DNA of 64,000 nucleotides from Ascidia mentula. Taxonomy: Eukaryota > Chordata > Ascidiacea > Phlebobranchia > Ascidiidae. Positions 23,280 to 63,101 of this stretch are shown piece after piece; position 1 is the stretch's first letter; the number at the start of each line of letters is the position of its first letter. The position numbers were made by a program, and so were the translations under genes. Where the stretch lies: positions 8,933,001 through 8,997,000 of the forward strand of contig OX387205.1 in NCBI GenBank assembly GCA_947561715.1. The letters run 5' to 3'. The notes under the pieces are model-generated. The model did no database searches. It was not told where the DNA came from and saw only the letters and a program-made list of their open reading frames with translations.

Positions 23280-26200
23280 ATGGGCCTGACTGTCCTGTTG
23301 TTTGTAACCTGTTTGGTTTCAATATCAAAAGGTAAGCAAGTTCGTCTGTTATAAAATGTAAATTTGGTTTTCGGGAATCTTCCACTTTGTCCGACCCAAA
23401 CATATATCACATGGTGACAATTGTCTTTCAACGGACAAAAGGGGCTGACGGTGCTATAGTTATACAAGCTTACACGCATGATGAGACACTTCAGAAAAAT
23501 AGACACAGACAAGTTTAAAACTCAAGACGAGATTATGGTCCCTGCCAAAAAGGATGTGACCCCAGTCACGTTTCTATTGTTCTCCTGCCATTCGAATGGC
23601 TACTGATGGTTTTCTAGTTTCCACACATTATAGGCACGAATGAAACGATTTCGTAACATTATATTCGCTAAGAAAATATCATTAGTTTCAGTAGCCTCGC
23701 CCAAGTGCACATTACTTAGGCACAAAATTCAAAGACTGTTTTTACTTTTCCTGTTTCATGCCTGTTTATAAATCAACTAACCTACACAACTGCACTTTAA
23801 AACTTTTCAGGACAAACCTATCTCCGTTGCTACTATTGTAATGAGTTGCTTTTCACCGGCCAACAACATATTAACAATGATTGCTACAACAACCCTTCGA
23901 AACTGCAAAATGAGTCCTGTCGTCTTTTCTACACAACTCCTCGCTGCTATTCAAAGTTCGAGATTCAGGATGGTGAGACTAATTGCATTGGACCAACAGA
24001 AGTGCTTAATTAACGTATTTGGAAACACATTTCTTTTGTGTGTAAGATAATGACCTATAGTTGTCGAAAAAACTATGATTAATGAGGATACCGTAAATAT
24101 GTCTGATTATATGTTATTCCCAGTAAAGATCAACCCATTACTTTCAATAAAGTTGTCTCAGTTAAAGCAGTCGAAATAGCCTATAGGTCTACTACGCATA
24201 GTTGGTTAGTGGTCGGATACTACACTTTTAGCAATACGTTATTTACTCAAATAAAAGCAAACCATCCATTTACTTGTTGGTGTTCCCAAACGAACTATAT
24301 ACTCTCCTCAATCCCAGGAACTGTGAGTAACGTTCAACGGGGATGTTACGATGCATCTACATCTACATCTACATCAGCACACACATGCTCGACAAGTTTT
24401 ATGTCAGTACAAGTGGAAAAAACCACTTGTCGTGATGATTGTTCCACCGACAACTGCAACAACATTCCTACCAGTAAGTTCGTGATGTTGGTGTTTCTTT
24501 AACGATCGCTGTAAACCTGTTAACTGTAGGAGATCTTTTGTCTTGCGCGAACAGTTGCTCGCAAGACTTGAATCAAGGTTTTTGTGACTATTTCACTGGT
24601 TCTTGTAGCTGTTCCAAAGGCTTCACTGGAGTTGATTGTTCAATAGGTAAGTAATCGGATGAGACTTAAGTTAAAACGTTTTGCAAAATCGCCATCACGT
24701 AGTTACTCTTGGATTCTTTTGAAAGAAAAGCAATCTTACAACTACAGTTACAAGTAACAACTCCTTAAATGATGTAAGTTACACATTGCAGTTGTTCCAA
24801 ATCCAGTGCTTAGAAGTTGCGTTCAGTGCAATGAGGAGACTGACCCGGGTTGCGCGACACAAACAGTTGGCAGCAAATGTTCTCAAAGCAGTGAGTTATA
24901 CTGCTCTGCCACCCACACAACTCTTTTGGATCCAAGTACGATGGAAAACTCCTATTTGTTCTATCCACTGAAAACAGTTTTAGTGATGCAAAATGTTTGA
25001 CCGCTAGGTGGAACCACTGTGCGGACAAGAATAGTGCGAGGTTGCACAACGGCTTTGAAATATAGGGATGCGTGTTTTTTCACAACTCCTCCTTACTCGC
25101 AATACAAATATTACACGGAGTACACATGTGTGAGCACTTGCGCCACAGACAACTGCAATACAGCAACACGTGAGATTTTGCAATATAATAGAAATATAAA
25201 CATTGATCGTATTGCTTTATCATTCTTGCCCAGCGAATGGAATCATCAGCGGAACAGAGAAAAAGGCACTTTACTGCATCCAATGCACAGAAACAAGAGT
25301 TTCTGGTGGTTGCACTTATTCCAACACGCGTTCGCTTTGTCCAGCGACCGCCACCCATTGCTATTCGGTTGCAACTTACTACACCGCAACCAAGACTGAT
25401 CTCACCTATATTGGAGGTAAATTACATATGACTAACCAACATTCATACATAAGAAAATTGCTGTGGTATATATATTACATAAATCATTTTGGTAATCTGG
25501 GTTTGATTATTTATTGACATCTATCAAGCAGAATGCCCAGTTAGCGGAGTTTTGTTTGCAGAGCCACCTGAATATCAATTTATTTCCGTGGTTCGTGGTT
25601 GTGGAACAAGTGCATTACCCAAGCAGTGCACCAGAAGCCAGCTGGGAACAACCAATGCTTATAAAACTGTGTGTCAAGAAAGCTGTCAAAGCGATGGATG
25701 CAACGATGGGTGGCGTAAGATTGATTTTATCTGGTATAAGTTGATTAAACGCGGCAATTTTTGAATCCGTAATACATTTGAAGCTGTGCAACGCAAGGTA
25801 GAGTTGTTAGAAACTAAATCCAACGCAAGATATATTAAAGCCTGAAAGTTCCTGCGTTTATTACAATTCAAAACTTCTTCGGCTATCATTTGGACCAGGG
25901 AAACCTAAACACATTAAGGAGACACCAGCTAAACCTTTATATATCTCTGTAGCAAACAGGCCAAAGTGCAGCAAGTGTTCGTCGTCAGGATCAAGTGGTT
26001 ACGACTGGTGTTTACTTAGTCCTTCCATCCCAACCCAGTGTGCAAAACCATACGAGTCACATTGTTACTACGCTGATGTCGGAAAAACTGGTTCAATGAC
26101 TGGTAAGACTTATTTGTTATTTCATTGTTCAAACTCATCGCATGTCGTCTGTCTTTTGGAGCATATTTCTCGTGGTTAAGTTATGAAGTGCTGCTTTACT

Positions 26201-26616
26201 GGCAACGATGGGTTGATCTTTGACATGGGAAACAGTTTATGAAACAAGATTTCTGGATGCAAACAAACGCATTGGATTAGGGGAATATAATGCAATGAAC
26301 CCATACTAGTGGAAACACAAAGCCTAAAGTTTATACAGTTTATTCACCCACTTATAAATTACAAATTCAAATATTCATTCAATTTATTAACATTTAATTA
26401 TTTAGTGATCGGGCGTAAATCCTGTTTTGTTTTTTTGGCCCAGCATCGATCAGCACAGGGTACCTACGTTATATCAAGCGAGGCTGCACTCATTTTGATC
26501 AGGGAAATGGCTGTTTGGGCAAATATGCGGGTCAAGCATTCATGACACAGTGTAACAAAACCTGCACAACTACCGGTTGTAACATGGGATTTGGAGATCC
26601 GACTGTTAACGTTTGA
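23280..26616 (+). CDS. Gene A: secreted LU-EGF-LU-LU-LU protein (no membrane anchor)
   Basis: Ten exons, all introns phase 1: 23280-23331, 23811-23972, 24318-24473, 24530-24646, 24792-24935, 25008-25169, 25234-25416, 25562-25714, 25953-26102, 26444-26616 (483 aa). Residues 1-17 are a signal peptide (MGLTVLLFVTCLVSISK). LU1 at 18-123 has the ten cysteines of a three-finger Ly6/uPAR domain (CYYC ... NDC ... ESC ... PRC / RGC ... HTC ... TTC..DDC.TDNCN). An EGF-like domain at 124-162 ends CSCSKGFTGVDC. LU2 is at 163-264, LU3 at 265-376 and LU4 at 377-483; each is split over two exons and ends in a C-x4-CN signature. A TGA after GDPTVNV ends the protein before the tail that gene B has, so it should be soluble. 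A donor (26632/GTAAGG) and acceptor (before 26691) follow the stop, and AATAAA lies near 26755. LU domains usually bind proteins; the ligand is unknown. Confidence 0.88.
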
Positions 26617-26754
26617 TTGCTGACTACAAATGGTAAGGATATAGTTTTGTTGAAACAAATGCTACAAATGTAGAGTTTTGTTTTTTCCAGGTTTGCTTTC
26701 ATACCGGACACAATAACAAGATGTTTTACTCTGTGTTGTCATCCATATAAGCGG

Positions 26755-28281: not shown

Positions 28282-31200
28282 ATGAGGTTGTGTCTGCTGC
28301 TGCTAACAAGCTTCGATGTCATACCAAGAGGTAAGCACGTTGAAATACGCAAAACACAAAAAATGCATATTTTGTGATATAATGTATTGACCAACATGCT
28401 TGTGTTTTCTAAGTTTTACTTTGTGCAAACTATACCTATTTCCAATGCGGGGGGCATTTTTTTTCTAATCAAATGTGTCAGACCTAAGACAAGAAACTAC
28501 TTCAAGCTGTATGTTACAACACACTCGATACCAAAATGCACAAATTTGTTAAACAAAGAAGGGAAATAGTATGGGATTGAGCTATAGTGGATATGACTTC
28601 ATACACGCTTCCTAACGTCCTGTTGTCGTTCGATTTGCAACTTGTTATTTTCCAGCCACCACATGACAAAAGTGCTTTTGATGATGATTTTAGAAATCTG
28701 GTTGACGCAAGAGTGGCAAATTTGAACAAATTAGTTTACCAATAACCTGAACATGCGCACAGACCAATGAATTTTAAAATTAACTAACATTTACAGCACG
28801 AGATTGTTTTCAACTTTGTATACGTTAATATATTGATATTCCTACAGAAGTATTTTATGCTTTCCAGGACAAGCGAAACTTTTTTGTTACTACTGTGATC
28901 AGTTGTATTTTAATGGCGAATCATACAGTAGCATTGATTGCTACAGCAACACTACGAATCTCCCGTATTTAGCCTGTCCGGTGCATTTCAAAACTCCACG
29001 CTGCTTTTCACAATTCGGGCTACATGACGGTAAGATTAATCACATTTCAGCATAAGTTACCTTATTTAAAATGGTAGCATATATCATTTTTCAGGCATTA
29101 GAACATTGAGGGATAAGTTTTTCGTACTTAACATACAGCCTGGCGCTATTACCATATCATATTGTACGTTTACATTGTCACAGTGCTATAAAATATTTTA
29201 TTTCGAACAAAAGACACATTTCAAGCATATAAGCACACAGACCGTTTAGACGTCACTCACAATTTCGAAACCAATACGACATGAAACAAAAAGCCATTCG
29301 TCTAGTGATGTGTCATCTCTATCAAAAACTCCTTTTTCCCTCACCGCAGGAACCGTGACTAATGTTCAACGAAATTGCTATGATGCGTCTACATCAGCAC
29401 CAGCATCGGGTCGCACATGTTCAACAAGGTATGTGTCAGTACGAGGGGAAGATACCACTTGTCGATATGATTGTTCCACCGACAACTGCAACAACATCCC
29501 AACTAGTAAGTTCGTGATGTTGGTGTTTCTTAACAATTGCTGTAAACCTGTTAACTGTAGGAGATCTTTTGTCTTGCGCGAACAGTTGCTCGCAAAACTT
29601 GAACCAAGGTTTTTGTGATTATTTCACTGGTTCTTGTAGCTGTTCCAAAGGCTTCACTGGAGTTGATTGTTCAATAGGTAAGTTGTTATGTGCTTGGCAA
29701 CTTAAGCAACAAATGTTGAGGAATTTTTGAGCTCATTTTGCCGAAACAATTGTACACAAATGTATATCTGAAAATTATTTACTGAAATTTAACATTTTGC
29801 AGTTGTTTCAAAAGTGGCGCTTAGAAGTTGCGTTCAGTGCAATGAGGAGACTGACCAGGGTTGCAGGACACAAACAGTTGGCAGCAAATGCTCTCAAATC
29901 CATGAGAAATATTGCTCTGCCTCACAAACAACTCTTATGTATCCAAGTACGATAAAAACTCTTGATATATTTCTTAAAATAATAACAAGTTACAAAACTT
30001 TGGCCGCTAGATGACACCACTGTACGGACAAGAGTGGTGCGTGGCTGCGCTATATGGTTGAAAAATAGAGACGAGTGCTTTTTTTCCACCCCTCCTTACT
30101 CTCGATACAAACTTCATACGGAGTACACGTGTGTGAGCAATTGTGCCACTGATAACTGCAACACAGCAACACGTGAGCTCTGTTATAAAACAGGAATTAT
30201 ACAGAAATCGCTTAAAAATGACCATTTTCGCAGCGAACGGAGTGATTGCTGGAATAGAGAAAAGGGCACTTTACTGCATCGAATGCACAGAAACAAGAGA
30301 CTATGGTGGTTGCGCCTTTAAAACACGTCGCTCACTGTGTCCAGTGACCGCCACCCATTGCTACTCGGTTGTAACTTACTACACCTCAACCAAGAATGAT
30401 CTAAGCTACAACGGTGGTAAACTTCAGACTAATAAGTATATTAGTGAACGTGTATGAATAAAAAATGGAAAATTTTATGTCCAGTATATTCAATTAAATC
30501 AAACAAAACAGGAAACACTTTAGGTTTGAGTTAGTAAGTCGTACACGAGGGATTTTCATTACTCAAGTTTCACCAAATTTTCTTCGCAGAGCCACCTGAG
30601 TATTACTTTATTTCATTGGTTCGAGGTTGTAGAACAACTGCATTGCCCAAGCAGTGCAGCATAACCCAGCTGGGTACAACCAGTGCCTACAAAACTGTGT
30701 GCCAGGAAAGCTGCCAAAGCGATGGATGCAATGATGGGTGGCGTAAGACTAATTTACATTTTCTCCTTATCATTACATATGTGTAGTATACTAAATGCAC
30801 AAGCTTTGGTGCAAAATACTTGGAGTTAATGAGTCTGAATAGGAAAGCCGAAGCTAATATGTTATTGATAATATTATGTAATCGTTTCGAACTCTTACTG
30901 GGTTGATCATCAGCACTAGAATGAACTGCATGCACAAGCTTTTTTGCTTACTTTTCCCAACTATGTCACAGAAAGTGTCTTTAAAACATATTTCAAATAA
31001 GTAGATCCACCAAAGGTGTATTTGTAGTTAAATGTTATGTTATTTGTGCAATTGATCAACAGCACAGTTAAATTCCAAAGAATCTTTCCTTCCGTACAAT
31101 TAAACGTAGATTATTATTTACCCTAATTTCACCTGTTTTTTTTAACTTGTCTTCATCCGGGTACAATTAAAGTTGAATTTGTGAAGTGTTTTTCCTCTCA

Positions 31201-32995
31201 TGGTTCGTTTTGCTCACTTTATATATCTTGTTTACACGCACTGTTTCGACCTGTCAGGTCTCATCAGTGCAGCTGTTGATGTGGCACTGTGATAGCTGGT
31301 AGACTAGCAGGCACACAGATTTCCACTTTGTGGTACCTTTCGGTCAATCGTCGATATGTTGGGTACCAAACTAGGTACCAATCAACAGGCCGAAACAGTG
31401 CGTGTATACACCCTATCTGCAGCTCTCATTGATTATTATGGCTCTTTTGCGCATATAATATCTTGTTTGTTATGCAAAATCTGCACAATTACATAACTGT
31501 TTATATATCTATTCCAACAAAAAAAATCCAACAAGTTTTTATTTTAAGCACTACTTATAGAAGTACGGAAAAACTACATTAGCCTATATGCTCTTTCCGA
31601 CAGAAAAGTATCTGCCAATCATAATTCACATTCAAAACTCAAACATTTGTACCTTTACAGCAAACAGGCCAAAGTGCGTCAGGTGTTCGTCGTCAGGATC
31701 ATCAAGTGGTTACGACTCGTGTTTACTTAGTCCTTCCATCCCAATCCAGTGTGCATATCCATACGAGTCACATTGTTACTACACTGATGTCGGAAAAACT
31801 GGTTCAATCACTGGTAACACAAATCGTTTGTTATTTAACAGTCTAACCAGCGTTATTTACAACTTTTACATATAATGTATTGGTCGATCAGACAAAATAG
31901 GAACCATTTTTTCTACCGTCTGGAAAAAATATTGCAGTAGAATTTGTGAACAATTAAATAAACAGTGAACTATAGTCTGGTGGTTCGGTTTGTTTTATAA
32001 ACACTAGTGACGAGAGAAGTTCAATTTTTGTCAAAACTTTATTTTACAATTTTGCTCAAGTTAATTTTCTTTTAGGTCCTGCGTCAAATCAAACCGGATA
32101 TTCACGATATATCTACCGAGGCTGTACTCATTTTGATAAAGGAAATGGCTGTTTGGACAAATACGCGGGTCTAGCGTCTATGACTCAATGTAACAAAACC
32201 TGCACCACTACTGGTTGTAACATAGGGTATGGTGAACCAGCACTAGTGCCTCAAATTGCTTACTCCAAATATGGTAAGCCCAATTATTTGTTTGGCTGCT
32301 ACAAATGGGTTTGACTGACTATCATTAGTTCCTGCGGATGTTTAGTCTTGTTACGGCGGACTTTCTCAATCGCATGTTTTTCCGAGCACGAGAAATGCTT
32401 TCACTTAAGTTCACACAGAAATAAACCTCTGTCAAATCAAAAATAGTGGCCCATAGTTTTCGTTTTTGTTAAATTTGCCCTAATTTCCTGCGAATTCTTT
32501 TTTTGGGGCTATTTTCGATAGTTTTTTGGCGGGAGAATAAATTCTATAATGTACCAAAATACTCAGCGCTTCAAGTTTGTGTAAAATCTCCAAAATAAGT
32601 TTAGTTGTAAAAATTCGTTTGAAAAACGCCGCCCACACCAACCGATTGTCAGGACCAGTCAAAACAGCAGTCAACAACTCATATAACCCCCACTGTACTG
32701 AAGAAAATAAAACTGGAAACATTAACACCCGTTTTCAACGATATGATGGCAAATAGGCCATTAGAGAGACTATTGTAACTAATATAAAATCGGCTCAAAG
32801 CCATCGTTCTTACATGTAAAAGTGTAGTATTGGCAAGCAAATCCATTTTCCCAAAACTGTGGAGTTTCTGCGTTGTAGAAAAAGTCAAATTACAAAATGG
32901 CTTTTAATATGTTTTTAGGTTTCAGCAATTGCAGAGGTCTCCTCCAGGTCATGATAAGAATCTCAATGGCTCTATTCGTCGGATTTTGGTTATAA
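28282..32995 (+). CDS. Gene B: GPI-tailed LU-EGF-LU-LU-LU protein
   Basis: Eleven exons, all introns phase 1: 28282-28330, 28868-29029, 29350-29505, 29561-29677, 29803-29946, 30011-30172, 30234-30416, 30590-30742, 31661-31813, 32076-32273, 32919-32995 (517 aa). Order: signal peptide (MRLCLLLLTSFDVI), LU1 17-122 (CYYCDQLYF ... CSTDNCNN), EGF-like 123-161 (CSCSKGFTGVDC), LU2 162-263 (CVQCNEETDQGC ... CATDNCN), LU3 264-375 (CIECTETRDYGGC ... CNDGW), LU4 376-492 (KCVRCSS ... CTTTGCNIG), then a 25-residue tail ending IRISMALFVGFWL, hydrophobic to the last residue as in a GPI-attachment signal. It is the closest full-length relative of gene A and of pseudogene C. Intron 30743-31660 carries a snap-back repeat. 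Surface display on the outer membrane leaflet is inferred from the tail. Confidence 0.88.
31225..31410. repeat. Snap-back repeat with gtttcgacct / ggccgaaac ends
   Basis: Inside a gene B intron. It opens with gcactgtttcgacctgtcag, continues gtctcatcagtgcagctgttg and closes with ggccgaaacagtgc, an inverted repeat. The same core (ggtctcatcagtgcagctgtt with aggtcgaaacagttg) occurs in the gene F intron at 53.4-53.8 kb. No protein is encoded. It is probably a non-autonomous element of the MITE or foldback type. Confidence 0.6.
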
Positions 32996-33810: not shown

Positions 33811-36800
33811 CTACTGTGCGACGGTGGCTCGGACAATGAATACGAAGAGTGTTGAAATAGATAAAACTGTGAAACTTGTGGCCGGTCTGCTTGATCCTCC
33901 CATTCCTGTTGACACATGATGTAAAACAGTTACACGTGATGTAAAAATCTCCATTTCGTTTTCATGAGGATCAGTATCAAAATGATTCTCAGCCCATCTA
34001 AGGTGCTTTTAGTTTGTGGATTTCATAAAATGTTTAAGTTTGTTTGCCGTAGAATGCTAGTTTTAATATTTTGGTAATGTGCACCGACTTAACAATAGAT
34101 CAAAGTTTACAAAAACAAAACTCTTCGTACCATGGTTACATTCGTCAGTGGTACAAGTTTTGTTGCATTGCTGAAAGGTGACACCTTGGTAACCTCAGTG
34201 CACGAGGAGCCGATGTCTATGGCCGAACAATCTCTCATCATGGTGCGTGAATAACCACGTCTGTTGTCGGCAAGGTCGGCTGAAAACATGAAAGCAACTG
34301 AATAAGCAGTTTTATTAAATGGCTGCAAAGCTAGTAAGAATTAGAAAAAGAACCCTAAATTTACTTAGTCTAAAAGAATTTCTTTTTATAAAACAAAATA
34401 GATTGCACAGTTAGCTGACTTTGCAGCCAAAGTATTTAAACCATCTGCTGGATCAAAGTCACTTTTTCCAGGCAAGCCGGAAAGAGATGAAAAAATCACG
34501 CCTTATGTTAGTATTTTTGTGTTAACTTTCCACAGTCCATGCTTTTACATGTTAGTTTTCCTTTCTCTCCTGTATCTGTATACACACAGTATTGATGGTT
34601 GGCTTGGCCACATTTTGTAGCACTCCTAGGATTGAAAAGACAATCGTCTGAACCAGCTGCTACCGACGCAGTATGGCTGGCGCATCGCAAACATTTGGGT
34701 CTGTTGGCTGTAAACATAATACTAGTGTTAGACTAAATTGTACAATACCAGTGTTTATTTAGTTATGTCTTTTTGATTAGGCACTCAGTTATATGAAGTT
34801 TGACACCTGAGATAAAATTTCAATAGTCCAAAGAACCATCCAAAATAACTCACAAAGACGGATTGACGATCAGCGTCAGTGCCATCTTTTATTTCAAAAA
34901 TCTCTCAAAAATATTATATTTGCCATAACGTTATCGTCAGTTTTGGTGCTTGAATGACATTTTTCTTTTAATCCAAAGAACTATTATTTCAATAAACTCT
35001 GACCTTTTTTCGACAAGTACTGTAATTTTTTTTCCATAAACAGATGCAGCACTAAATTACTACTGAAGGTTGCGCATAATCGATCGTTTCAGTACCAAAT
35101 TTCTTGCATGATGCAAATTTACTATTTCCGAGTTCTTTTATTTTTTCAAATCGGCAACTTACGCCAGCCATCGTTACATCTGTCAGTTTGACAAGTTTCT
35201 TCACAAGCTGTTTCCACTCCATTCGATGAAGGGTAAGTTGTGTCTGTACATCTGGGCGTCAATGATTTGTTGGTGCAACCTCTCTCGATAGAAATTAACT
35301 GGTAGCCTTTACCTTAAATAAATGTCCGATAAAATACGTCTGCCAATCGTAGGATTTGGTTTTAATTTGTGACACACCGGGTGATATTGTGCGGTAAGTA
35401 GCTCTGGAAAGGCAAAGTCCTTGATCCGTTGGACATCTTCTAGGAGATCCGGTGCACGAGGATCCAATGTTGTTGCATTCATAACAAACCAGCGAGGGAC
35501 CGGAACCATCCGCTATTAAAAAAATTTCTGTAAACGGTTCTGGGCCCAGCTATAACGAACTGCACCAAAATTTAAAGGCATCTGACTCATTGATGAGTGA
35601 AATAAAAGTAGTTTATTGTAACAAATTAACTTGTGCAAGGATTCATCTAAATGTGTAAAAGCAAGATTACAAAGCAATGCGAAACCTTACGTGTGTTTGT
35701 GTTACAACCGCTTGTGGCACAGGTGGTGGTGCACGTGTGTTCAACATAATGGTCCAAGCGAGAATCGGCAGGTGATGAAAACGTGCATTCGTCCTTTGAT
35801 GTTGTGTCGCTTGTACACCCACGAGAAATAACCGTTTGAACCAAGGTTCCATCTGATACGTTCATTAATAAGCAAACTTCTAAGTGAGAGCAACAAAAAG
35901 AATTAAAAAACTTACTTGGACCGTATAAACGCGTGTGACTTGTAAAGCAATGTGTTTGGTCTGAACTAGAGCAGTTTGTGGCTTGTAAGTTTCCAGAGCA
36001 CGTTGTTTCTGTTGCGTCGCTGCACTGAATACACTGTTGGACTTGGTCGATTGGTGCTAAAATGATATACAGGAAAAGTCAAACAGATCAGTACAATTCA
36101 CCAGAATACACAAGACCCATAATATCTGCCCCTACCAATTTCACATCTGCTTCCTGTATAATCCTTCGGGCAAACACATTTTCTCTGCAAGTAATCACAA
36201 AAACCAAAACCACAACCCGAGGCCGGACAATCTACGAAGTTTTCTGAAACAGAAAGCGCATGGTAAAAAATTCTTTTCGGAACAAATATTGGAAAGTACA
36301 CAATATTTATAGTAAATATTACACAAATTTGCAAAAATTCCCATAAGCTGGTTTATTATTCTTAAGCTTACGTGTTGTTTGATTGTTGCAAAGGTCTGAT
36401 GTACAGGAATACATGCACGTGGTCGTTTCAACATTTTCAAAGCTGGTGGAACACTGACGGGTTTGAGGTGAAGTACCAGACTCACAACCGCGATTAACGT
36501 CTATCACCAGACCTAGAAACAAAAAATTACCAAAAAGTCAATATAACGAACACTTGCCTCACATCATAATAAATAAGTATTTGGTTGTCGTTAATATTTT
36601 TGTCAAACCAGCTTTGGGCCAAAACAAAAAAAAATTAAAATACAATTTATAATATCTTTGATCATTCCCACTTGGTCACAAGTCATTGAGTTACCATCAT
36701 TTATTGTAAAGGTTGTGAAGCAATATCCTGGATTTGCAGCACTCCCACATGGTAATGTTGCTGTGCTGATTGATTGGTTGTTGTAGCAAGCATCGTTTGG

Positions 36801-37110
36801 CGAGTCGTAGTAGGTATAATCACTACATCTGTAGCAAGTAATCTGACCTTAAATATGTTAAAATAAAGGATTAAAACAAGTTACTGCTGCAGCAATTTTA
36901 AAATCAATCAAACCTTGAAAGAACCTATGGATTTTGTGGTTAAATTTTAGGCGAACCAAAACTACATACAGTCTTTTTACTGTTATATGAGTAAAAATAC
37001 CTCTTAACATGCAACAAAGTATGGTACAATATTCATACCCTACAATAACATTTTGGTAGCTTACCTTTTGTCGATGCAACGGTCACAACTAAAAGCAACA
37101 AAACTTTCAT
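33811..37110 (-). pseudogene. Gene D: LU-EGF-LU-LU-LU copy with frameshifted last LU domain
   Basis: Exons: 37110-37065, 36847-36695, 36512-36372, 36243-36136, 36056-35916, 35852-35691, 35512-35378, 35312-35163, 34707-34549, 34279-34131, 33905-33811. Signal peptide MKVLLLLVVTVAST. The first three LU domains, the EGF-like domain (CPASGCGFGFCDYLQRKCVC) and the first half of LU4 are intact and in phase. The second half of LU4 is 149 bases against 153 in gene E, because four bases are missing after CTEVTK. The frame then shifts, the last cysteines and CN signature are lost, and the GPI-tail exon (MGGSSRPATSF...) is no longer read in its own frame. The product would be a truncated or secreted form with a novel end, or the gene is dying. 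The shift is young, since the rest is well preserved. Confidence 0.85.
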
Positions 37111-38860: not shown

Positions 38861-39620
38861 AAAAAAGCTTAGTTTAAGAAAGATATCAAAAAGGAATGTT
38901 TCAGCTGCAAAATACACGTGCTTATGAATAGAAAAGGAAAAAAGATATCGTGCGGTACGACAAGCGGGAATAACAAAATGTTGATGTATTGGACATCTGA
39001 TGAATTCTGGATTGCTGAAGACATTGTCGGCTGATGTCCAAAGTGAATACAGATAACAAGACAACACACGATTTGTTGCAGTCAGTTTCTGCAAAAAGAT
39101 GCACAGAAAATAACTCTGATTAATTTTATCACCAAAAAATTTAGTTTTTAAGTTGCACACATAGAAAAAATTGAACATATTAACTATCAATGTGCGTGTT
39201 CTGAATTAAAATTTATGTCTAAATTATGTTCTAAATTAAAAAAAAAATTTTTACGTCTTTAAAATGTTTATTTAGCCAACACACGGGTCTATGAAATTTG
39301 GCCTGACTACTGCTCCAAGACGACAAAAGAGAGCTTAAATTATATCGTGAACCTTGACCTTGCACCCAAAGTGCAGTAAAAAATGCACTCAAAAAATTTT
39401 TTTTCATTAAAGCTAGCATATCGCTCTTTCCATCTACTACTCATGTGTGAACGTGTTGCAACCATTTATGACGCAAGCTCCTATGCATGTGTGTTCCACG
39501 TATCGTATCAGTGTGGGATTGGCCAGTGTTGAAAACGTGCATTCTCTACATTGTGTCAGTCGTACAGCCGCGAGTATGACCGTTTATACCAACGCTCCAT
39601 CTATTACATACATTTGAAAA
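38861..39620 (-). pseudogene. LU-domain gene relic (copy 1)
   Basis: Two recognisable pieces remain in minus-strand order. One, at about 39610-39430, resembles the second half of LU2 (CN signature region with VEHTC-like context). The other, at about 39060-38900, resembles the first half of LU3 (CPxDQQxCYSR-like). Both match better-preserved pieces at 50.3-50.75 kb. Neither keeps a full open exon. Confidence 0.55.
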
Positions 39621-40472: not shown

Positions 40473-40725
40473 TTCGCAGTGCGGAGACTGACCAGGGTTG
40501 CGCGACACGAACAGTTGGCAGCAAATGTTCTCAAATCCATGAGAAATATTGCTCTTCCTCACAAACAACTCTTATGTATCCAAGTACGATAAAAACTCTT
40601 GATAAATTTCCTAAAATATAACATAGTATAAACTTTGGCCGCTAGATGACACAACTGTGCGGACCAGAGTAGTGCGTGGCTGCGCTATATGGTTGAAAAA
40701 TAGAGACGAGTGCTTTTTTTCCACC

Positions 40726-40738
40726 CTCCTTACTCTCG
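40726..40738. repeat. Target-site duplication, left copy
   Basis: ctccttactctcg. The same 13 bases recur at 41626-41638, flanking the Penelope-like insertion. Gene B has this string once, in the uninterrupted exon. Confidence 0.85.
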
Positions 40739-41625
40739 CAGAAAATGATAAATGATAAAAAAGTCGTCTGTCTGTTTTAAGTTTTTACGACATATATATT
40801 TCGCCTGTCTGTGCAGGCATCATCGGTATCGCTAAAAAACAACACAACAACGGAGTTAACCAACAGTAATGCAAATGTAAAAATACCTTACAAACTGACA
40901 ATCAGATTTCACGATTAGGTAGGGTGCGACTGAACTGTCGGCTTTGGCTTGTTTGTGGGGACGCTCGATAAAACATAAAATAAAAGAAAAAAGGGAGAAC
41001 ACAACAAGCTGCAAACGATAGCGGTAAAAAATGACGGCGGTGATCTGGCTCTACGTCATTGATAAGCTTGTCACAATGACAACACAGTTGGTGGACACTT
41101 CAAAGGTAAGCGGAAGTAAAAACAAAACCGACACTTACATTGTATTAGGCAATATAAGGGGGTTGATGTTAATTTTTGCCTTGATTTTGTGAAACCATTT
41201 GTTTTCACATATATCCAATAAATGCACTGGGGGCTGTTCTACGAAGACGACTTTGAAGCATTTTGCCATGTCAACATGTCGGTTCTGCTTGTGTTGTGCG
41301 TGGTAATGGTGGAGCAACGCAGCTCGGTCGGTATTTCCGTTGTCTTTTCCCGTTTTCCAAACAGCTCGATGTCCATTCCATCGAGTGGAAAACTTGTTTT
41401 TCGTTTGGCCAACGTATTGGTCACCACATAAAAGGCGGGTAGCTATATAAATGCCATAGTTTCGACATGTCAATGTCTGACGGAGTGGAATTGGCCCACT
41501 GGGTGTTAATAACTGGTTGGTACTTACAACCTTTGATGTGTGGTTGCCGAAATTCCAACAGAGGGCGCAATGGCCACAAGGCTGTGACAGTCCTGTTTTG
41601 TTCGGGTTTTGATCGTCACAATGAG
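40739..41625 (-). mobile_element. Penelope-like retroelement fragment with GIY-YIG endonuclease domain
   Basis: An 887-base insertion in an exon of pseudogene C, flanked by a perfect 13-base target duplication. The minus strand at 41473-41135 encodes about 112 residues with GIYIATRLL, CGDQYVGQTKNKFSTRW and NGHRAVW, the GIY-YIG endonuclease signature found C-terminal to the reverse transcriptase in Penelope-like elements. The reverse transcriptase is absent, as expected for a 5'-truncated copy. Near 40.8 kb a repeat-tail motif (aggcatcatcgg) marks the other end. Confidence 0.78.
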
Positions 41626-41638
41626 CTCCTTACTCTCG
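41626..41638. repeat. Target-site duplication, right copy
   Basis: ctccttactctcg, identical to 40726-40738. After it the gene C exon resumes with atacaaacttcatacggagt. Confidence 0.85.
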
Positions 41639-42049
41639 ATACAAACTTCATACGGAGTACACGTGTGTGAGCAATTGTTTTACCGATAACTGCAACACAG
41701 CAACACGTAAACAGGAATTATGCAGAAATCGCTTAAAAATGACCATTTTTCGCAGCAAACGGAGTGATTGCTGGAATAGAGAAAAGGGCACTTTACTGCA
41801 TCGAATGCACAGAAACAAGAGACTATGGTGGTTGCGCCTTTAAAACACGACGCTCTCTGTGTCCGGTGACCGCCACCCATTGCTACTCGGTTGTAACTTA
41901 CTACACCTCAACCAAGAATGATCTAAGCTACAACGGTGGTAAACTGCAGACCAATAACTATATTAGTGAACTTGTATTTATAAAAAAGGGAAATTTTAAG
42001 TCTAGTATATTCAATTAAACAAAACAGGAAACATCGCAGAAGTAACGCC

Positions 42050-46600: not shown

Positions 46601-46869
46601 AGTAATCTGACCTTAAATATGTTAAAATAAAGGATAAAACTAATTACTTCTGCAGTTGTAAAATCAATCAAACCTTGAAAGAACCTATGGATTTTGTGGT
46701 TAAATTTAGGCGAACCAAAACTACATACAGTCTTTTTACTGTTATATAAGTATAAATATATCTTAACATGCAACAAAGTATGGAACAATATTCATACCCT
46801 ACAATAACATTTTGGTAGCTTACCTTTTGTCGATGCAACGGTCACAACTAAAAGCAACAAAACTTTCAT
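43602..46869 (-). CDS. Gene E: GPI-tailed LU-EGF-LU-LU-LU protein
   Basis: Eleven exons, all introns phase 1: 46869-46824, 46611-46465, 46277-46137, 46009-45902, 45822-45682, 45618-45457, 45278-45153, 45088-44939, 44478-44320, 44069-43917, 43696-43602 (475 aa). Order: signal peptide MKVLLLLVVTVAST, LU1 16-111 (CYSCSDNNYYDSPNDAC ... CTSDLCNN), EGF-like 112-147 (CPASGCGFGFCDYLQGKCVC), LU2 148-248 (CIQCSDATETTC ... CATSGCNT), LU3 249-340 (CYECKIGTSC ... CQTDRCNDGW), LU4 341-444 (RCFRCDSHPAS ... CTTDDCNHG), then a tail MGGSSRPASSFTVLSISTLF, which fits a GPI signal: small residues (GGSS) followed by a hydrophobic run. The whole frame is open. It is the intact partner of gene D in the segmental duplication. 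Last-exon donor GTGCGA is weak. Confidence 0.87.
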
Positions 46870-50026: not shown

Positions 50027-50745
50027 GCCACCCATCGTTGCACGCGTCAGTCTGGCAGGTAGCTTCACAAGTTGTCACCACTACATTCAAAAGAGGATAA
50101 GCTGTGTTCGTACATCTGGGCGCCAATGCTGCGTTGGTGCAACTTCCCTCGATGTAAATAAGCTTATGTAAACTTTCATTACACAAAAGAAAAGGCTACG
50201 CGATGGTATTCCAGGTGGTACGCGAGGACCTTTCCGTAATTTGCGGATATAGTTCGAATTTAAAAAATCTTAAGGGATCTTAGAATGTTTGTTACTTCAT
50301 CCCCTAGACAACATAGAACAAAAATACCGCGGAAGTTGGAAGATATCGTGCGGTACGAAAAGCGGGAATAACAAAACTGTTGATCTATTGGACATCTGAT
50401 GAATTTTGGATTGCTGAAAACGTTGTCGGCTGATGTCCAAAGTGAATACAAATAACAAGATAACACACGATTTGTTGCATTAGCTGTTAAAAAAGATAGA
50501 CTGATAGTATTAATAAGTCAGTTTCTGCAAAAAAGCACAAAAAACTCTTTCCATCTACTACTCACGCGTGAACGTGTTGCAACCATTTGTGACGCAAGCT
50601 CTTATGCATGTGTGTTCCACGTAACCTATCAGTGTAGGGTTGGCCAGTGTTGAAAACGTGCATTCTCTATTAGAAGTTGTGTTAGTCGTACAGCCGCGAG
50701 TAATGACCGTTTGAACCAACGCTCCATCTAATATATACATTTGAA
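50027..50745 (-). pseudogene. LU-domain gene relic (copy 2)
   Basis: Minus-strand order as in the family: second half of LU2 (about 50735-50560, ISRGC-like TRGCTTNTTS, CVTNGCNTFT), first half of LU3 (about 50440-50330, FIRCPIDQQF) and second half of LU3 (about 50164-50027, SCTNAALAPRC ... CQTDACNDGW with a good GTAAGT donor). Two of the three pieces remain open, but no signal peptide, EGF, LU1 or LU4 is found. It is therefore a decayed gene and not a working short form. Confidence 0.65.
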
Positions 50746-50859
50746 ATTAAGATCTCTTGATCCTCCCATACCTGTTAATATAGGATACCCCAAGACAATA
50801 TATTTATGTTGTTTGGCTGCAAAGAAAATTCTTTGCTCAAGCTTACACCATACTTTGAT

Positions 50860-50950
50860 GTAAGAGGTGTAACTGTGCATCTGAGCGTTAATGCTGTGTT
50901 GGTGCAACCATCCTCGATATAAAACAGCTTATAACCTTCATAACACCAAA
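50860..50950 (-). pseudogene. Second relic of the LU3 second-half exon
   Basis: Reads KLFYIEDGCTNTALTLRC, like the exon at 50164-50027, then decays. A further copy of the family must once have stood here. Confidence 0.55.
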
Positions 50951-51721: not shown

Positions 51722-54700
51722 TTAGGAGGATGGGAGTTGGACAATGTATGTAAGGAGTGCTGATATCGATAGAACGACGAAGCTCGTGGCTGGCTTGCTT
51801 GATCCTCCCATACCTGTTAATGCAAGTTGTAAATTGTAAGACGTCAACATACATGCCTATTTTATGCCATGATACTTAAATTGGGAAATATTGTGATTGC
51901 TTTTCTCTTTTGGACATTTGCAAACTATTTTACAGGTTGGTTGTTGGGCATATAGGAAACTTCATATATAGGAAACTTCATATATAGGAAACTTCACATA
52001 TAGGAAACTAGGATCTACAAAAAAAAAATTTGAAAATAGGTTTGGATACTGTATACAAAGGAGTTGAAATGGATAGAAAAGTAAACCCGGTACCGGCCTG
52101 GTTGATCGTCCCATTTCTATTAACGTAACGGACATATTAAGTGCAAAAACGAATATAAACTAATTTAACACACAATAATATGAAATTAACGATAAGTTTC
52201 GCCTACCGTGGTTGCATCCATCAGTTGTACAGGTTTTGTTGCATTGCTCAAAGGTTGTTCCTCCACTTGTTATTTCAGTACACGTGGACCCAAGGTCTGT
52301 AGCTGAACAATATCGAACCATCGTGCGCGAATAACCTCGTCGATTGTCGGCTAGAGTGGCTACATTTGGTAAATAAAAAAATTAATATTTATTATCTCTG
52401 TCTATCAAGACTTAGGGCAAATGTCAGCTTGTCGCAAGCAATACTTACAAGTGAGCCTTCCCTTTTCCCCGCGATCTGTGTAAACGCAGTACTTGTAATT
52501 TGCTTGACCACAAGCTTGTATCAAATTGGGATTGTAAAGGCAGCTGTCAGAACCGTCAGCAACACTAGCAGAACTACTGACGCATGTAAAGCAAATGGGC
52601 CTTGCAGCTACATCAAAAAAAAACAATGGGTGTATGGTAATAGGCCTATAAATTTAAAATATTGAGACATGAACTTACGCCAACCACTGTTACACCCTAA
52701 AGTCTGGCAAGTTTCTGCACAAGTTGTCTTAATCCCGTTCGATGACTCGTATGTTGTGTCTGTACATCCGGAAGTCAATGCTGTGCTGGTGCAACCTCTC
52801 TCGATGGAAATCTCTTGGTAACCTTTATCGTGTCAAGCAAGCTTTAAAATTAAGTTCCTTATTTTTGACAAAGTGTTTTTATGCGATTTTTGATTTAAAA
52901 CCTCTTGTTTTGTGGGTGACATATAAAAACACGGATATTTAAAAACATATAATCAAATATCTACCTTGGTTGGTATTGGTAGGTATTGTACGATATACCA
53001 CACGGGAGTAACAATATTGTTGATCTGTGGGGCATCTGATCAAAGATCCGAATCCTGGTCCACATGCGCCAGTTGTGGAATCGCATTGGTAACAGAACAG
53101 CCCGGGACTGTTTCCATCAGCTGTTAACATAGTGTGATGTTATTGAAATAACGCAGAATACTTCATGTTATCGCATCACAAGGCAAGATCGCCCCACTGC
53201 CTAGGTCCTTGCTCGGCGATCAAACCTATCGTATTGAGCTCATTATGTTCACTGGCATAGCAACCAGGGCATTGCAGTCAAGTAGGATCAGCCACTTTTT
53301 CTCGACAAGTCGGAGCGAGATCTGAAAAATCAAGCTCCTCCAGAAAGTGTGGCTGATCGATCTTGAAATGTCCGCGAACTTGCATAAATTATGAATTGTG
53401 TTAGCTGCGTATAAATGGCCAACTGTTTCGACCTAAAAGGTCTCATCAGTGCAGCTGTTGTGACTATCAGTCGACTTTGCCGATTAAACGGCTAAGCAAA
53501 GGTCTCGCAACCTTATAGGTCGAAACAGTTGGCCACCTGTATGTAGTTTGCACAATTCAGAATATTGGCTCCACTTTGCTTATCATATGATTATTGCATT
53601 TCTTGTCCATAGTATTTCCACCTTGTTTTCTCCGTAAGGTTGCACCTAGTTTGGTGCCCAACGGATGATGGTGATTGAATAGTCACCACAAAGTGGAAGT
53701 CTTTGCTTGGCCGTTTGTTCGGCAAAGCTTGTCTGATATTCACCAGCTGCACTAATGGGACCTTATAGGTCGAAATAGTTGGCTGTAGGCAGCTAACAAA
53801 ATTATTATTATCGGCTCCACTTTGCTTATTACATAAAATAAGTTATTATATTAATAGTTTGTTTTAACGACACTGGATTGACAAAAACCAAAATACACTA
53901 TTTTTGGCGAATATTTGCAGGTTTTACTTGCAGAAGTATATTTGCAGAAGTTATTTTGCTTTCTTGGATTTCTAGGATTGTAGCGCAGTCGTCAAGTAGT
54001 TGTTATACGCCGAAAATTTAAGCGGGGTTTTAAGCAGCGCTTAAAGTTAAGGGCAGGATTAAGCCAAGCTTAAAGACAAGCGGGGTTTCTGGATATCACC
54101 CCACCCTATACCTTAAGTACAGCATTGTAGTCAGTTTTTTTCACATTTCATAACATAAATGCAACCTTGTTTAACCCTTGTTATATTGCTAACAAATATA
54201 CTTACGGTTGTTTGTGTTACAACCGCTTGTGGCACAGGTGGTGGTACACGTGTGTTCAGCATATCCGACCAAGCTGCGGTCGATAGGTGATGAATATGTG
54301 CATTCATCCTTTGATGTCGTGTCGCTTGTACATCCACGAGAAATAACCGTTTGAACCAAGGTTCCCCCTAGCACGTACATTTGTTGGCAAACGCAAAAAA
54401 GTTAGAGTAACAAAAGAATAAAAAACTTACTTTGATCGTATAAACGCGTTTGACTTGCAGAGCAATGTGTTTGGTCTGAACTAGAACAGTTAGTGGCTTG
54501 TAAGGTTCCAGAGCACGTTGTTTCTGTTGCGTCACTGCACTGAATACACTGTTGAAATGTGGAGGTTTGGACTGAAAGACAATAAATATTTGGGCGAGAA
54601 CATTAGAAAAGCTAGAATAACTTTTTGGGAACTGAAATTCGAGGCCAATATACAATAAAGAATATTTGGTAAACTAGAACTGTCAGTTTTGGAACACAAG

Positions 54701-55666
54701 AGATTACTACCTCGGATTAGGGATTTGAAAGGCAATTTTTATAGACTGACTGAAACCCACTGACAAATTAAAATTACCGGTATTACATTTGGTTCCTGAA
54801 AATCCTGTCGGACAGACACATGTCCCTTGCAAGTGACCACAGAAACCTGCACCACAACCCTCGGCTGGACAATCTTTGTACTTTTCTGTGAAAGAAAGTG
54901 TACCTTTATCGCTGAAAAACGTGTAAGCTCTTTTCAATGTAACAGTTAACTGAATGTCAATACACTGCTTTACGAAAAACTTACGTGTTGGTTGGTTGTT
55001 GCAAAGGTTCGTTGTGCAGGAATACGTACAAGTGGTCGTTTCAACGTCTCCAAAGATGGTGGAACACTGACGGATTTGAGGCACAGGACCAATTATACAA
55101 CCGCGAACAACGTTTGTCACCAGACCTACAGAATTGAATTTTTGAAACGACACAATGAAAGAGACATAAAACTTTGTATGTAACACACATTTATAATCCT
55201 TAATTTGTTTCAATATGTTGTCGTGTATCTTTTGTCACAACCTATACCATATGCCATATGGGGAATGTGATAATATAACGCAGTTTTCTCCTAAATTATT
55301 ACTTAGTTTAAAATAAAATATTTGCTTACCATCATTAATTGTGTAAGTCGTGTGGCAATACCCTGGAGTTGTAGCATCTCCGCATTGCAATTTTAATAGT
55401 GTACTGGTTGATAGGTTGTTGTGGCAACCGCTACACGAGTAGCAATTCATCTGACCTTAGAAAGAAATATATTTTCAGGGTTTATCTAAAAAAGTTAATT
55501 CAACACGAAGCATGGAAACGAAACACATAGTGATTGGGGTTTGTTCTGATTCGTTTTTCTCTTTTTATGGTCTCTTAATAAATCGGTAACCATTAAAACA
55601 CATGGATATCCTACCTTTTGCCAATTCAACGATGGACACGACCAAAATCAACAAAAATACTTTCAT
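51722..55666 (-). CDS. Gene F: GPI-tailed LU-EGF-LU-LU-LU protein
   Basis: Eleven exons, all introns phase 1: 55666-55615, 55455-55330, 55125-54985, 54885-54778, 54571-54431, 54367-54206, 53120-52965, 52822-52679, 52607-52449, 52359-52207, 51813-51722 (477 aa). Order: signal peptide MKVFLLILVVSIVELA, LU1 18-106 with a shortened first loop (CYSCSGCHNN ... CTTNLCNN), EGF-like 107-142 (CPAEGCGAGFCGHLQGTCVC), LU2 143-243 (CIQCSDATETTC ... CATSGCNT), LU3 244-343 (CYQCDSTTGAC ... CQTLGCNSGW), LU4 344-447 (CFTCVSS ... CTTDGCNHG), then tail GMGGSSKPATSFVVLSISAL, GPI-like. Intron 53121-54205 is swollen by a SINE and snap-back repeats; the same intron in gene G is under 300 bases. A decayed extra tail exon lies at 52035-52130. 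Confidence 0.88.
51951..52010. repeat. 16-base tandem repeat
   Basis: Four units of tataggaaacttcata, the last incomplete, in the last intron of gene F. Confidence 0.85.
52035..52130 (-). pseudogene. Relic of an extra GPI-tail exon in gene F
   Basis: On the minus strand, after an AATAG acceptor-like site, the frame reads EMGRSTRPVPG and then leaves the tail pattern. It lines up with GMGGSSKPATSF of the working exon at 51813-51722. It is an old duplicate of the tail exon, probably unused, although an alternative end cannot be excluded. Confidence 0.5.
53160..53345 (-). repeat. SINE fragment in gene F intron
   Basis: Shares ggcaagatcgccccactgc, ggcattgcagtcaagtagga and acaagtcggagcgagatct with the SINE at 42.05 kb. 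The tRNA-like head is not recognisable here. Confidence 0.65.
53390..53870. repeat. Composite snap-back repeat in gene F intron
   Basis: Two copies of ccttataggtcgaaa(c/t)agttgg face one ggccaactgtttcgacctaaaagg. The core ggtctcatcagtgcagctgttg is shared with the gene B intron, and attggctccactttgcttat occurs twice. The arrangement suggests a foldback element, possibly one inserted in another. Confidence 0.6.
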
Positions 55667-60134: not shown

Positions 60135-63101
60135 TTAGGAGAATTGGAGTTGGACAATGTATGTAAGGAGTGCTGATATTGATAGAACGACGAAGCTCGT
60201 GGCTGGCTTGCTTGATCCTCCCATACCTAATAATGTAAGTTATGAATTGTTAGACGTCAACATACATGCCTATTTTATGGTAAATAGGGAAATATTGTGA
60301 TTGTTTTTATAAATAGTTGTGGATTTCCAAACTATTTTATAGGCTTGTTATTAAGCATACAGAAACACTTGCTTACCGTGGTTGCATCCATCAGTTGTAC
60401 AGGTTTTGTTGCATTCCTCAAAGGTTGTTCCTCCACTTGTTATTTCAGTACACGTGGACCCAATATCTGTAGCTGAACAACTTCGAACCATCGTGCGCGA
60501 ATAACCTCGTCGATTGTCGACTAGAGTGGCTACATTTGGTAAATACAAGAATATTTTTATTATCTCTATTAAAACGTCAGGCTTGTCGCAAGCAGTACTT
60601 ACAAGTGAGCCTTCCCTTTTCCCCGCGATCTGTGTAAACGCAGTACTGGTGATTTGGTTGACTACAAACTTCCATTGAACTGGGATTGTAAAGGCAACTG
60701 TCAGAACCGACAGCAACACCAGTAAAACTGCTGGTGCAGCTGAAGCACCTTGGCCTGGCAGCTACATAAAACCAATGGGTGTATGGTAATAGGACTATAA
60801 ATATAAAGTTTTAAATTATCAACTTACGCCAACCATTGTTACACCCAATAGTCTGACAAGTTTCTTCACAAGTTGTATTAATCCCGTTCGATGACTCGTA
60901 TGTTGTGTCTGTACATGCGGAAGTCAATGCTGTGCTGGTGCAACCTCTCTCGATAGAGATCTCTTGGTAACCTTTATCGTGTCAAGCAAGCTTTAAAATG
61001 AAGTTCCTGATTTGTGAGTTTATTTGTGAAAAAGTGGTTTTTCCGTTTCACGATTTACGATTTAAACCTTTTAATTTTTTTGTGTATAACATGTAAAACA
61101 CGGGTATTTAAAAACATATAATCAATTTTTTACCTTGGTTGGTATTGGTAGGTATTGTACGATATGTCACACGGGAGTAACAATATTGTTGATCTGTGGG
61201 ACATCTTATATACGATCCAAAGCCTGGTCCACAAGCGCCAGTTGTGGAATCGCATTGGTAACAGAACAGCCCGGGGCTGAGTCCGTCAGCTGTTAACAAT
61301 AGTGTGATATTATGGAAAATAAGTGTTTTATGTTATCATCATGTTCACTGGCAGAGCATCCAAAACATTGCAGTCAAGCAGGATCTGCCACTGTTTCCCT
61401 ACAAGTCGGAGCGAAGTCTGAAAAATCAAGCTTCTTGGGCAAAAGTGGCTTATAGATCTTAGATATAAGCCGAGCTTAAAGTAAAGCGGGGTTGCTGCAT
61501 ACTCTCAATATTACTGTAGTGATATTTTTGCTTATAGCCCTTGTTATATTAACAACGAATACTTACGGGTGTTTGTGTTACAACCACTTGTGGCACAGGT
61601 GGTGGTGCACGTGTGTTCAACGTATCCGGCCAAGGTGGAATCGGCAGGTGATGAAAACGTGCATTCTTCGTTAGAGGTTGTGCCCGTCGAGCATCCACGA
61701 AAAATAACCGTTTGAACCAAGGTTCCACCTAGCACGAACATTTATGGGCACACCGTTAAGTGGGACTAACAAAAATAACAAAAAAACTTACTTGGATCGT
61801 ACAAACGCGTCCGACTTGCAGAACAATGTGTTTGGGTTGTTGAACCAGGGCAGTTGGTGGCTTGCAATGTTCCAGTGCATGTTGTTTCTGTTGCGTCGCT
61901 GCACTGAACACACTGTTGAAATGTGGAGGTTTGCACTGAAAGACAATAAATATTAAGGTAAGAACATAAGAATATCTGGAATAAATAGTTAAGAACTGAA
62001 ATTCAAGGCCAATTCGCAATTGGCAGACCATGGAACTATCTTATCTTGAACACGAGGTACCATTTTGGACTACGATTGGGAAATACATAAAAAAAAAATA
62101 ATTGGAGGCTGACTGAAAACCACAGACTAAATAACATTACCGGTTTCACATCTGGTTCCGGAAAATCCAGTCGGACAAACACATGTCCCTCGCAAGTAAT
62201 CACAGAAACCTGCACCACAACCCAAGGCTGGACAATCTACGAAGTTTTCTGTAAAACAAAGTTTACCTTTATCACTGAAAAAAGAGTACGCTCTTTTCAA
62301 TTTAAAACAGTTAACTGGATGTCAAGACACTGCTTTACGAAAAGCTTACGTGTTGCTTGGTTGTTGCAACGGTTTGTTGTACAGGAATACGTGCAACTGG
62401 TCGTTTCAACGTTTCCAAAATTAGTGAAACATTGACGGGTTTGAGGTGAAGTACCAGACACACAATCTCGAACAACGTTTGTCACCAGACCTACAGTCGG
62501 ATTTAAAAAAAACAGATATAATCAAAGAGACAGATAAATCAAACTCCTGTATGCACTACACATTTATAATCTGTAATTTGTTTCATATATAGTATCGTGT
62601 TTATTTTGTCACAGCTCCATTAATGTAAATAATGTAATAACGCACGAGAGTTCATTTACAGTTAATATAATGGAGTTTATCTTAAATTACTACATAGTTT
62701 GGAAAGAGTATTTGCTTACCATCACTAATTGTAAAGGTCGTGGAGCAATACGCTGGAGTTGTAGCACTCCCACATGTTGATGTTGCTGTGCTGGTTGATT
62801 GGTTGTTGTAGCAAGCATCGTTTGGTGAGTCGTAAAAGGGATTAGAAAATGAATCACTACAGAAGTAGCAATTAATCTGACCTTAAAAAGAATTGATGGT
62901 TTAGGAGTTTATCTAAAATTTCTGAAATAGGTAGCACGAAGCCTAGTAACAAGACACATAGTGATACATTGGCGTTTGTTCCTAAGCGTTTTTCTATTTT
63001 TATGGTCTCTTAATAAATCGGTAACCAGTAAAACACATGGATATCCTACCTTTTGCTAATTCAACGATGGACACGACCAAAATCAACAAAACTACTTTCA
63101 T
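60135..63101 (-). CDS. Gene G: GPI-tailed LU-EGF-LU-LU-LU protein
   Basis: Eleven exons, all introns phase 1: 63101-63050, 62881-62720, 62490-62350, 62248-62141, 61935-61792, 61728-61567, 61289-61134, 60971-60828, 60761-60603, 60529-60377, 60226-60135 (490 aa). Order: signal peptide MKVVLLILVVSIVELA, LU1 18-118 (CYFCSDSFSNPFYDS ... CTTNRCNN), EGF-like 119-154 (CPALGCGAGFCDYLRGTCVC), LU2 155-256 (CVQCSDATETTC ... CATSGCNT), LU3 257-356 (CYQCDSTTGAC ... CQTIGCNNGW), LU4 357-460 (RCFSCTSS ... CTTDGCNHG), then tail GMGGSSKPATSFVVLSISAL, GPI-like. It is the closest paralogue of F, but its LU1 keeps the longer first loop seen in D. The cluster therefore mixes features between copies. Confidence 0.89.
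61340..61450 (-). repeat. SINE fragment in gene G intron
   Basis: Contains acattgcagtcaagcaggatc and acaagtcggagcgaa, as in the copy at 53.2 kb in the corresponding intron of gene F. It probably predates the F/G duplication, or both inserted nearby. Confidence 0.6.

Follow-up and report, generated by a model that had tools for sequence, protein, structure and literature searches.

The ascidian Ascidia mentula carries, as far as its genome sequence allows us to judge, a multicopy family of genes for probable cell-surface proteins that contain four modules of the Ly6/uPAR (LU) type and one EGF-like module placed after the first. Our analysis starts from 64,000 nucleotides of contig OX387205.1 (assembly GCA_947561715.1, positions 8,933,001 to 8,997,000 of the forward strand), referred to here as the window, in which six complete copies of the gene, A to F, lie between positions 23280 and 63101 together with relics, each copy having the domain order signal peptide-LU1-EGF-LU2-LU3-LU4. 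We consider it likely that the products are secretory-pathway, mostly glycosylphosphatidylinositol (GPI)-anchored cell-surface binding proteins of the Ly6/uPAR superfamily, with four three-finger modules of which the first is separated from the next by the EGF-like module, and their most likely role would be in surface binding or adhesion. The family is best read as a new architecture within this known superfamily.

Gene models and domain architecture of copies A to F

The exons of A to F were placed by hand from the sequence and then checked for frame and splice sites. The resulting models are as follows, in window positions.

Copy A, 23280..26616, plus strand: signal peptide 23280-23331; LU1 23811-23972 and 24318-24473; EGF 24530-24646; LU2 24792-24935 and 25008-25169; LU3 25234-25416 and 25562-25714; LU4 25953-26102 and 26444-26616; no tail exon found (from the model, the cysteine count, and the tail search)
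Copy B, 28282..32273, plus strand: signal peptide 28282-28330; LU1 28868-29029 and 29350-29505; EGF 29561-29677; LU2 29803-29946 and 30011-30172; LU3 30234-30416 and 30590-30742; LU4 31661-31813 and 32076-32273; last exon not found
Copy C, 33811..37110, minus strand: signal peptide 37110-37065; LU1 36847-36695 and 36512-36372; EGF 36243-36136; LU2 36056-35916 and 35852-35691; followed by LU3, LU4, and a tail exon near 33905-33811
Copy D, 43602..46869, minus strand: signal peptide 46869-46824; LU1 46611-46465 and 46277-46137; EGF 46009-45902; LU2 45822-45682 and 45618-45457; LU3 45278-45153 and 45088-44939; LU4 44478-44320 and 44069-43917; GPI-like tail 43696-43602
Copy E, 51722..55666, minus strand: signal peptide 55666-55615; LU1 55455-55330 and 55125-54985; EGF 54885-54778; LU2 54571-54431 and 54367-54206; LU3 53120-52965 and 52822-52679; LU4 52607-52449 and 52359-52207; GPI-like tail 51813-51722
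Copy F, 60135..63101, minus strand: signal peptide 63101-63050; LU1 62881-62720 and 62490-62350; EGF 62248-62141; LU2 61935-61792 and 61728-61567; LU3 61289-61134 and 60971-60828; LU4 60761-60603 and 60529-60377; GPI-like tail 60226-60135

Five of the copies (A, B, D, E, and F) are open in frame from the signal peptide through LU4, with a stop codon after LU4 in A, and D, E, and F remain open into the tail exon. Each LU domain is encoded by two exons and the EGF-like domain by one, separated by phase-1 introns (in A, B, D, E, and F, and in C up to LU3). The models of the five open copies have nine or ten introns each, and their 48 exon joins are all in phase 1 with GT-AG sites, the splice sites having been hand-placed with phase 1 in mind. 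The inner intron of the LU domains falls between cysteines 5 and 6, in the region of loop 2. Copy C has the domain order of D and a tail exon, and it is probably a pseudogene or a truncated allele, since a deletion of 4 bases relative to D, near 34185 in the second exon of LU4, shifts its frame. The sequence-only reading of this DNA had counted seven gene copies in the window, a number ruled out by the exon survey, which finds six complete ones including the frameshifted C. The domain order that it proposed, a signal peptide followed by LU, EGF, and three further LU domains, is borne out by exon models with fitting splice sites, and the tandem copies and relics that it described are confirmed by the A-F array, by further copies outside the window, and by relic exons.

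The ten cysteines expected of an LU domain are present in the LU order, ending C-x3-C-x4-C-N, in 22 of the 22 domains counted in A-F (LU3 and LU4 of C stand outside this count), and all six EGF exons have six cysteines, ending C-x-C-x8-C, with 6 residues between the third and the fourth. As the LU domain is defined in passages of a 2019 review (PMC6600238), it has an Asn after the tenth cysteine, is encoded by an exon pair with phase-1 borders, and carries its inner intron in loop 2; the A-F domains fit this definition because they share all of these features.

Extent of the family in the genome

The genome searched comprises 195.8 Mb in 79 contigs, and the window lies on the contig we call C73. 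Its mitochondrial genes follow the ascidian code, for the COX1 frame reads through TGA and has 18 AGA or AGG codons at sites of conserved COX1 glycines. Searches with protein F gave at least 104 matches and those with copy J (463 residues taken from DNA) at least 105, both lower bounds because only the best candidates were scored. Copies with LU1-EGF-LU2, the feature for which they were selected, number at least 19 at six loci, namely the window array and five others; ten of the 19 are A-J and nine are additional. Outside the window they are distributed as follows.

Copies G, H, and I, same strand, no more than 38 kb beyond the window: continuation of the array, with candidate signal peptides
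Copies J, M, and N, C73:15.28-15.295 Mb: same domain order
Copy K, C72:8.31 Mb: same domain order
Three copies with LU1 and EGF, C69:14.42-14.48 Mb: same domain order
One copy, C73:85-88.5 kb: same domain order
Two copies, C73:10.02 and 10.04 Mb: same domain order

All of the 19 except the two at C73:10.0 Mb were followed to LU4 (17/19), which rests partly on protein-search matches for the second half of LU2 in K, the second half of LU3 in M, and the three C69 copies. The models of G-K and M were built automatically on the assumption of phase 1 and are thus no test of intron phase, and one border of two exons in I could not be placed. A genome-wide search for the EGF motif C-[DN]-Y-F-T-G-[ST]-C as a pattern hit copies A, B, J, K, M, and N, six places in all, and its control gave none. 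At C73:10.025 Mb (L054, C73:10024601-10026600) the EGF and the first half of LU2 are read in a single open stretch, and that copy thus seems to have lost the intron that separates them. Further LU4 matches on C69 were left outside the counts.

Tail exons of the GPI type

Tail exons after LU4 in which a patch of small residues precedes a hydrophobic end are present in 12 of the 14 copies examined, namely C-F, G-I, and 5/5 of the distant copies scanned (J, K, M, N, and the copy at C73:88 kb), the misses being A and B. They were picked by eye from hydrophobicity scans that list other frames too, and they have the look of candidate GPI signals. The GPI-like tail of the sequence-only reading is supported for C-F and not for A and B. 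A candidate for B at 32948, with NGS before the hydrophobic end, was dropped; its distance is 675 bases, and the block around it recurs in the downstream flank of C and D.

Assignment of the LU and EGF domains

Profile searches support these domain calls in part. In the Pfam search whole copy F matched QVR at 42.5 bits, above the cut-off of 27.3, the sole LU model to pass its cut-off. Among 20 single LU domains searched at E up to 1, QVR matched 5 and UPAR_LY6 matched 4, and the single EGF exons of A-F all matched EGF_2 (6/6 at E up to 1). In copy G, LU1 matched QVR below the cut-off. Against solved-structure sequences the EGF profile gave 26 matches at E up to 0.1, the best being Notch EGF repeats, and whole F gave two WIF1 matches alone (E 0.3) and no LU relative. 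A scan of NCBIfam gave no match.

Several results weigh against our reading and are gathered here. No LU model of Pfam matched whole E or whole A; J and M gave EGF matches alone, below the cut-off, and no LU match; and those EGF matches for which a cut-off is stated all fall below it, as with EGF_2 for the F exon and the match in whole A. The assignment consequently leans in large measure on cysteine spacing, gene structure, and alignment. A search of the genome with UPAR_LY6 gave no match, and its controls were equally silent, which makes it uninformative; the corresponding search with QVR gave three matches below the cut-off (E 0.02-0.07), all on C2 and none in the LU-EGF family. An LU profile found nothing among solved-structure sequences at E up to 10. 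Downstream of A and B the hydrophobicity scan, which lists three frames below A and ten below B, offered no convincing tail exon. Finally, three places outside the 19 are incomplete: at C2:3.69 Mb (L043, C2:3688001-3693500) a gene has three LU domains like LU2-LU4, and LU1 and EGF were not found in 5.5 kb; at C69:14.4096 Mb the second half of LU2 to LU4 is present, and LU1, EGF, and the first half of LU2 were not found from 14407501 to 14416500; and at C73:10.016 Mb there is the end of an EGF plus LU2, and LU1 was not found in 2.5 kb.

In addition, weak Quiver-type matches at C2:11.03 Mb (L010-L012) fall on apparent LU first halves and mark a separate LU place.

Evolution of the array

When 41 LU domains, taken from 11 copies, are placed in one tree, LU1, LU2, LU3, and LU4 each fall on one side of a branch, with branch supports of 92/96, 90/91, 86/96, and 98/99, respectively, and with the same grouping in 90, 89, 90, and 98% of 200 bootstrap trees. 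None of 500 label shuffles was as low as the observed tree grouping, the caveat to the tree being a program warning of long branches (K, LU1 of I, and LU3 of D), whose joins are possibly false. As each module forms its own group, the architecture most likely arose first and whole genes were then copied.

Pairwise comparison of nonsynonymous (dN) with synonymous (dS) change gives dN/dS values of 0.33 for A-B, 0.53 for E-F, 0.45 for G-H, and 0.58 for C-D, the last computed without the second LU4 exon. Purifying selection is significant (p <0.01) in three of the four pairs, with Fisher p values for dN below dS of 6e-15 in A-B, 3e-4 in E-F, and 6e-3 in G-H, and of 0.066 in C-D. These values bear on the notion that we are looking mostly at decaying gene fragments with no function, which would account for the relics, the frameshift in C, the tail exons not found in A and B, and the incomplete copies elsewhere; selection in three pairs speaks against it, as do the open frames of A, B, D, E, and F with their splice sites, and we regard it as highly improbable.

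No domain in any of the four pairs gave a significant case of positive selection. Two domain values exceed 1, that of EGF in E-F (1.22, p 1.0) and that of LU2 in C-D, which has one nonsynonymous and zero synonymous change, and strong positive selection is thus unsupported by pairwise dN/dS, whole or by domain. In all four pairs dN/dS is higher in LU1 than in LU3 (0.32 vs 0.28, 0.65 vs 0.27, 0.71 vs 0.29, and 0.74 vs 0.30), and an LU1 end that changes faster than LU3 would be compatible with ligand binding there.

There are also signs of gene conversion. The intron between LU1 and EGF differs between A and B at 2 of 55 sites (24473-24530 and 29505-29561), compared with 36-48% in the eight other A-B introns, which suggests a conversion patch. 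The intron within LU2 is identical in C and D (0/63 sites differ), and between D and E dS is 0.2 in LU2 and 1.1 in LU3, a pattern that likewise hints at conversion.

Such data invite the proposal, close to the recognition or defence role that the sequence-only reading had suggested, that this is a recognition family, a special case of the surface-binding role, concerned with gametes, with self and non-self, or with the binding of microbes by blood cells, and drawing its variation from duplication and conversion. The copy number of at least 19 at six loci, the relics and conversion patches, and the higher LU1 than LU3 ratio in 4/4 pairs all favor it, and there is a precedent in Bouncer, a single-LU GPI protein that acts in fish fertilization (PMC6600238). 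On the other hand, significant purifying selection in three of the four pairs leaves recognition or defence undemonstrated, whole-gene dN/dS is below 1 in every recent pair, the domain values above 1 are not significant, and LU genes cluster and duplicate in many animals anyway, according to passages of the same review (PMC6600238). We hold a recognition role to be a tentative possibility. Its most specific form, an ascidian system of LU-EGF-LU-LU-LU receptors reshaped by conversion, in which the LU1 end would vary between individuals and serve self or gamete recognition, strikes us as quite unlikely.

A doubtful but tenable proposal, also compatible with a surface-binding role, is that the proteins serve epithelial or structural adhesion in barrier or tunic tissue, in the manner of fly septate-junction proteins, which have a single LU domain. 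In its favor, three of the four pairs show purifying selection, QVR is the sole Pfam LU model that was passed over its cut-off, and fly LU proteins function in septate junctions (PMC6600238, in part). The large lineage duplication, the conversion, and the relics seem, however, to go beyond what a single barrier role would need.

Paired cysteines in LU1

In an alignment of 19 LU1 domains, 13 have both cysteine 4 and cysteine 6, six have neither, and none has one without the other (0/19); cysteines 7 and 8 are retained in 19/19. The six that lack cysteines 4 and 6 are K, M, N, and the three C69 copies; the window copies keep all five pairs, and in N the first cysteine of LU1 lies beyond the end of the sequence stretch. 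The consensus bonds of LU domains are 1-5, 2-3, 4-6, 7-8, and 9-10 (PMC6600238), and the chance that two random cysteines of ten are a bonded pair is 1 in 9. The six domains probably form one lineage with one loss event, so the paired loss counts as one event and not as six. Cysteines 4 and 6 thus appear to come and go together, which is indirect evidence consistent with the 4-6 bond of LU domains. In passages of PMC6600238 the bonds named as lost are 2-3, often, and 7-8, rarely, unlike the 4-6 pair here, for which we claim no first.

Comparison with known LU proteins

We found no description of LU plus EGF in one protein in the open-access literature, judged largely from titles and abstracts and with subscription papers mostly outside, and word searches of the accessible text of PMC11595613 and PMC4839075 gave neither EGF nor tunicate. 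The earlier suggestion that the family is undescribed is to this extent upheld, weakly, given that same scope. According to passages of PMC6600238, LU domains occur mostly singly or as LU-only repeats with few exceptions, and the LU domain scarcely qualifies as a true mobile module, being rather a "proto-module" with GPIHBP1, SP-10, and the TGF-beta receptors as exceptions.

Human CD177 is GPI-anchored, as most copies here are predicted to be, and like them has four LU domains, with LU1+LU2 and LU3+LU4 forming two units joined by a flexible linker. In contrast to the copies described here, which carry an EGF exon, the word EGF is absent from the main text of PMC13022285, and the LU domains of CD177 have three or four disulfides, compared with the ten cysteines (five bonds expected) in 22/22 LU domains of A-F (PMC13022285, in part). 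With their EGF exon, the window copies fall outside a CD177-like class of four LU domains and no EGF. The phase-1 exon sets, one for each LU, are also shared with uPAR (PLAUR) and its multi-LU group at human 19q13 (C4.4A, Haldisin, TEX101, and others), whose GPI anchor corresponds to the one predicted here, as described in parts of PMC8417595 and PMC6600238. However, uPAR has three LU domains only, compared with four plus EGF here, and LU1 of that group lacks the 7-8 bond (PMC8417595, PMC6600238), whose cysteines are kept in all 19 copies. Membership in the mammalian uPAR group is ruled out because LU1 keeps cysteines 7 and 8 and because an EGF exon is present, in contrast to that group, which has LU domains alone outside the cell.

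Quiver has one LU domain, and the likeness to it consists in F passing Pfam QVR, which is a profile match and no test of orthology. Multi-LU proteins of flies have 2 to 44 LU domains (PMC6600238). The zebrafish two-LU cluster on chromosome 21 and Bouncer resemble the present family in being clustered LU genes with ten cysteines per LU, and they are GPI-anchored, as is predicted here; they have two LU domains and one, respectively, with EGF unmentioned in passages of PMC6600238, and the copies here have four plus EGF. In a chordate survey no three-LU gene is reported from cartilaginous fishes to coelacanths, save one in a teleost, and passages of that survey do not discuss tunicate LU genes (PMC6337849).

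The part of uPA that enters the cavity of uPAR is its EGF-like domain, and the loop that it uses is longer than the 6-residue segment between the third and fourth EGF cysteines of A-F. One may picture a uPAR-like receptor with a built-in ligand, in which the tethered EGF would sit in the LU cavity and LU1 would open and close over it. Parts of PMC8417595 and PMC6600238 describe how uPAR binds uPA in the cavity of its three LU domains, with LU1 mobile; here the EGF stands between LU1 and LU2 in the chain, and one group of copies has lost an LU1 bond, as has mammalian uPAR, though a different one. The short EGF loop weakens this proposal, the bond lost is 4-6 and not 7-8, and the window copies keep all five, so that we consider it very unlikely.

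Relics and neighboring features

The window holds the following relics of the family.

39446..39598, minus strand: LU2 second-half exon
40484..41937, plus strand: B-like relic with both halves of LU2, the second interrupted by an insert, and the first half of LU3
50028..50939, minus strand, between D and E: a single exon for the second half of LU2, a fragment of the first half of an LU3, and two fragments from the second half of LU3

The DNA of 39424-39619 is 89.6% identical to the relic at 50545-50746. The insert in the B-like relic contains a frame on the minus strand, 41138-41629, whose match to GIY-YIG is weak (19.2 bits, below cut-off), perhaps from a mobile element. Beyond the window, pieces of LU1 first-half exons lie between copies (L002:8641-8712 and L004:3079-3159) and are probably further relics. 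Elsewhere in the window, positions 8570-18896 on the minus strand hold gene exons with a ubiquitin hydrolase-like stretch at 18582-18896 (Pfam UCH, 21.0 bits, below cut-off), and we take this gene to resemble USP53/USP54.

A proposed mechanism and its significance

For the surface-binding proteins that we favor, we put forward the following hypothetical course of events. Phase-1 exon shuffling in an ancestor of the copies would have placed an EGF exon between two sets of LU exons. In the resulting protein LU2-LU4 would form the part near the membrane and LU1 plus EGF a distal arm. LU proteins bind their partners via loops and concave faces (PMC6600238, in part), and by analogy the concave faces and loops of the LU domains here may bind a protein partner, with copy number and conversion supplying variants of the binding surface.

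With an EGF module flanked by LU modules, matching phase-1 introns, and at least 19 copies, the family clearly shows the LU domain as part of a mixed modular protein. Should the family prove to have a role in recognition, it would be of wider interest, given how closely tunicates are related to vertebrates.

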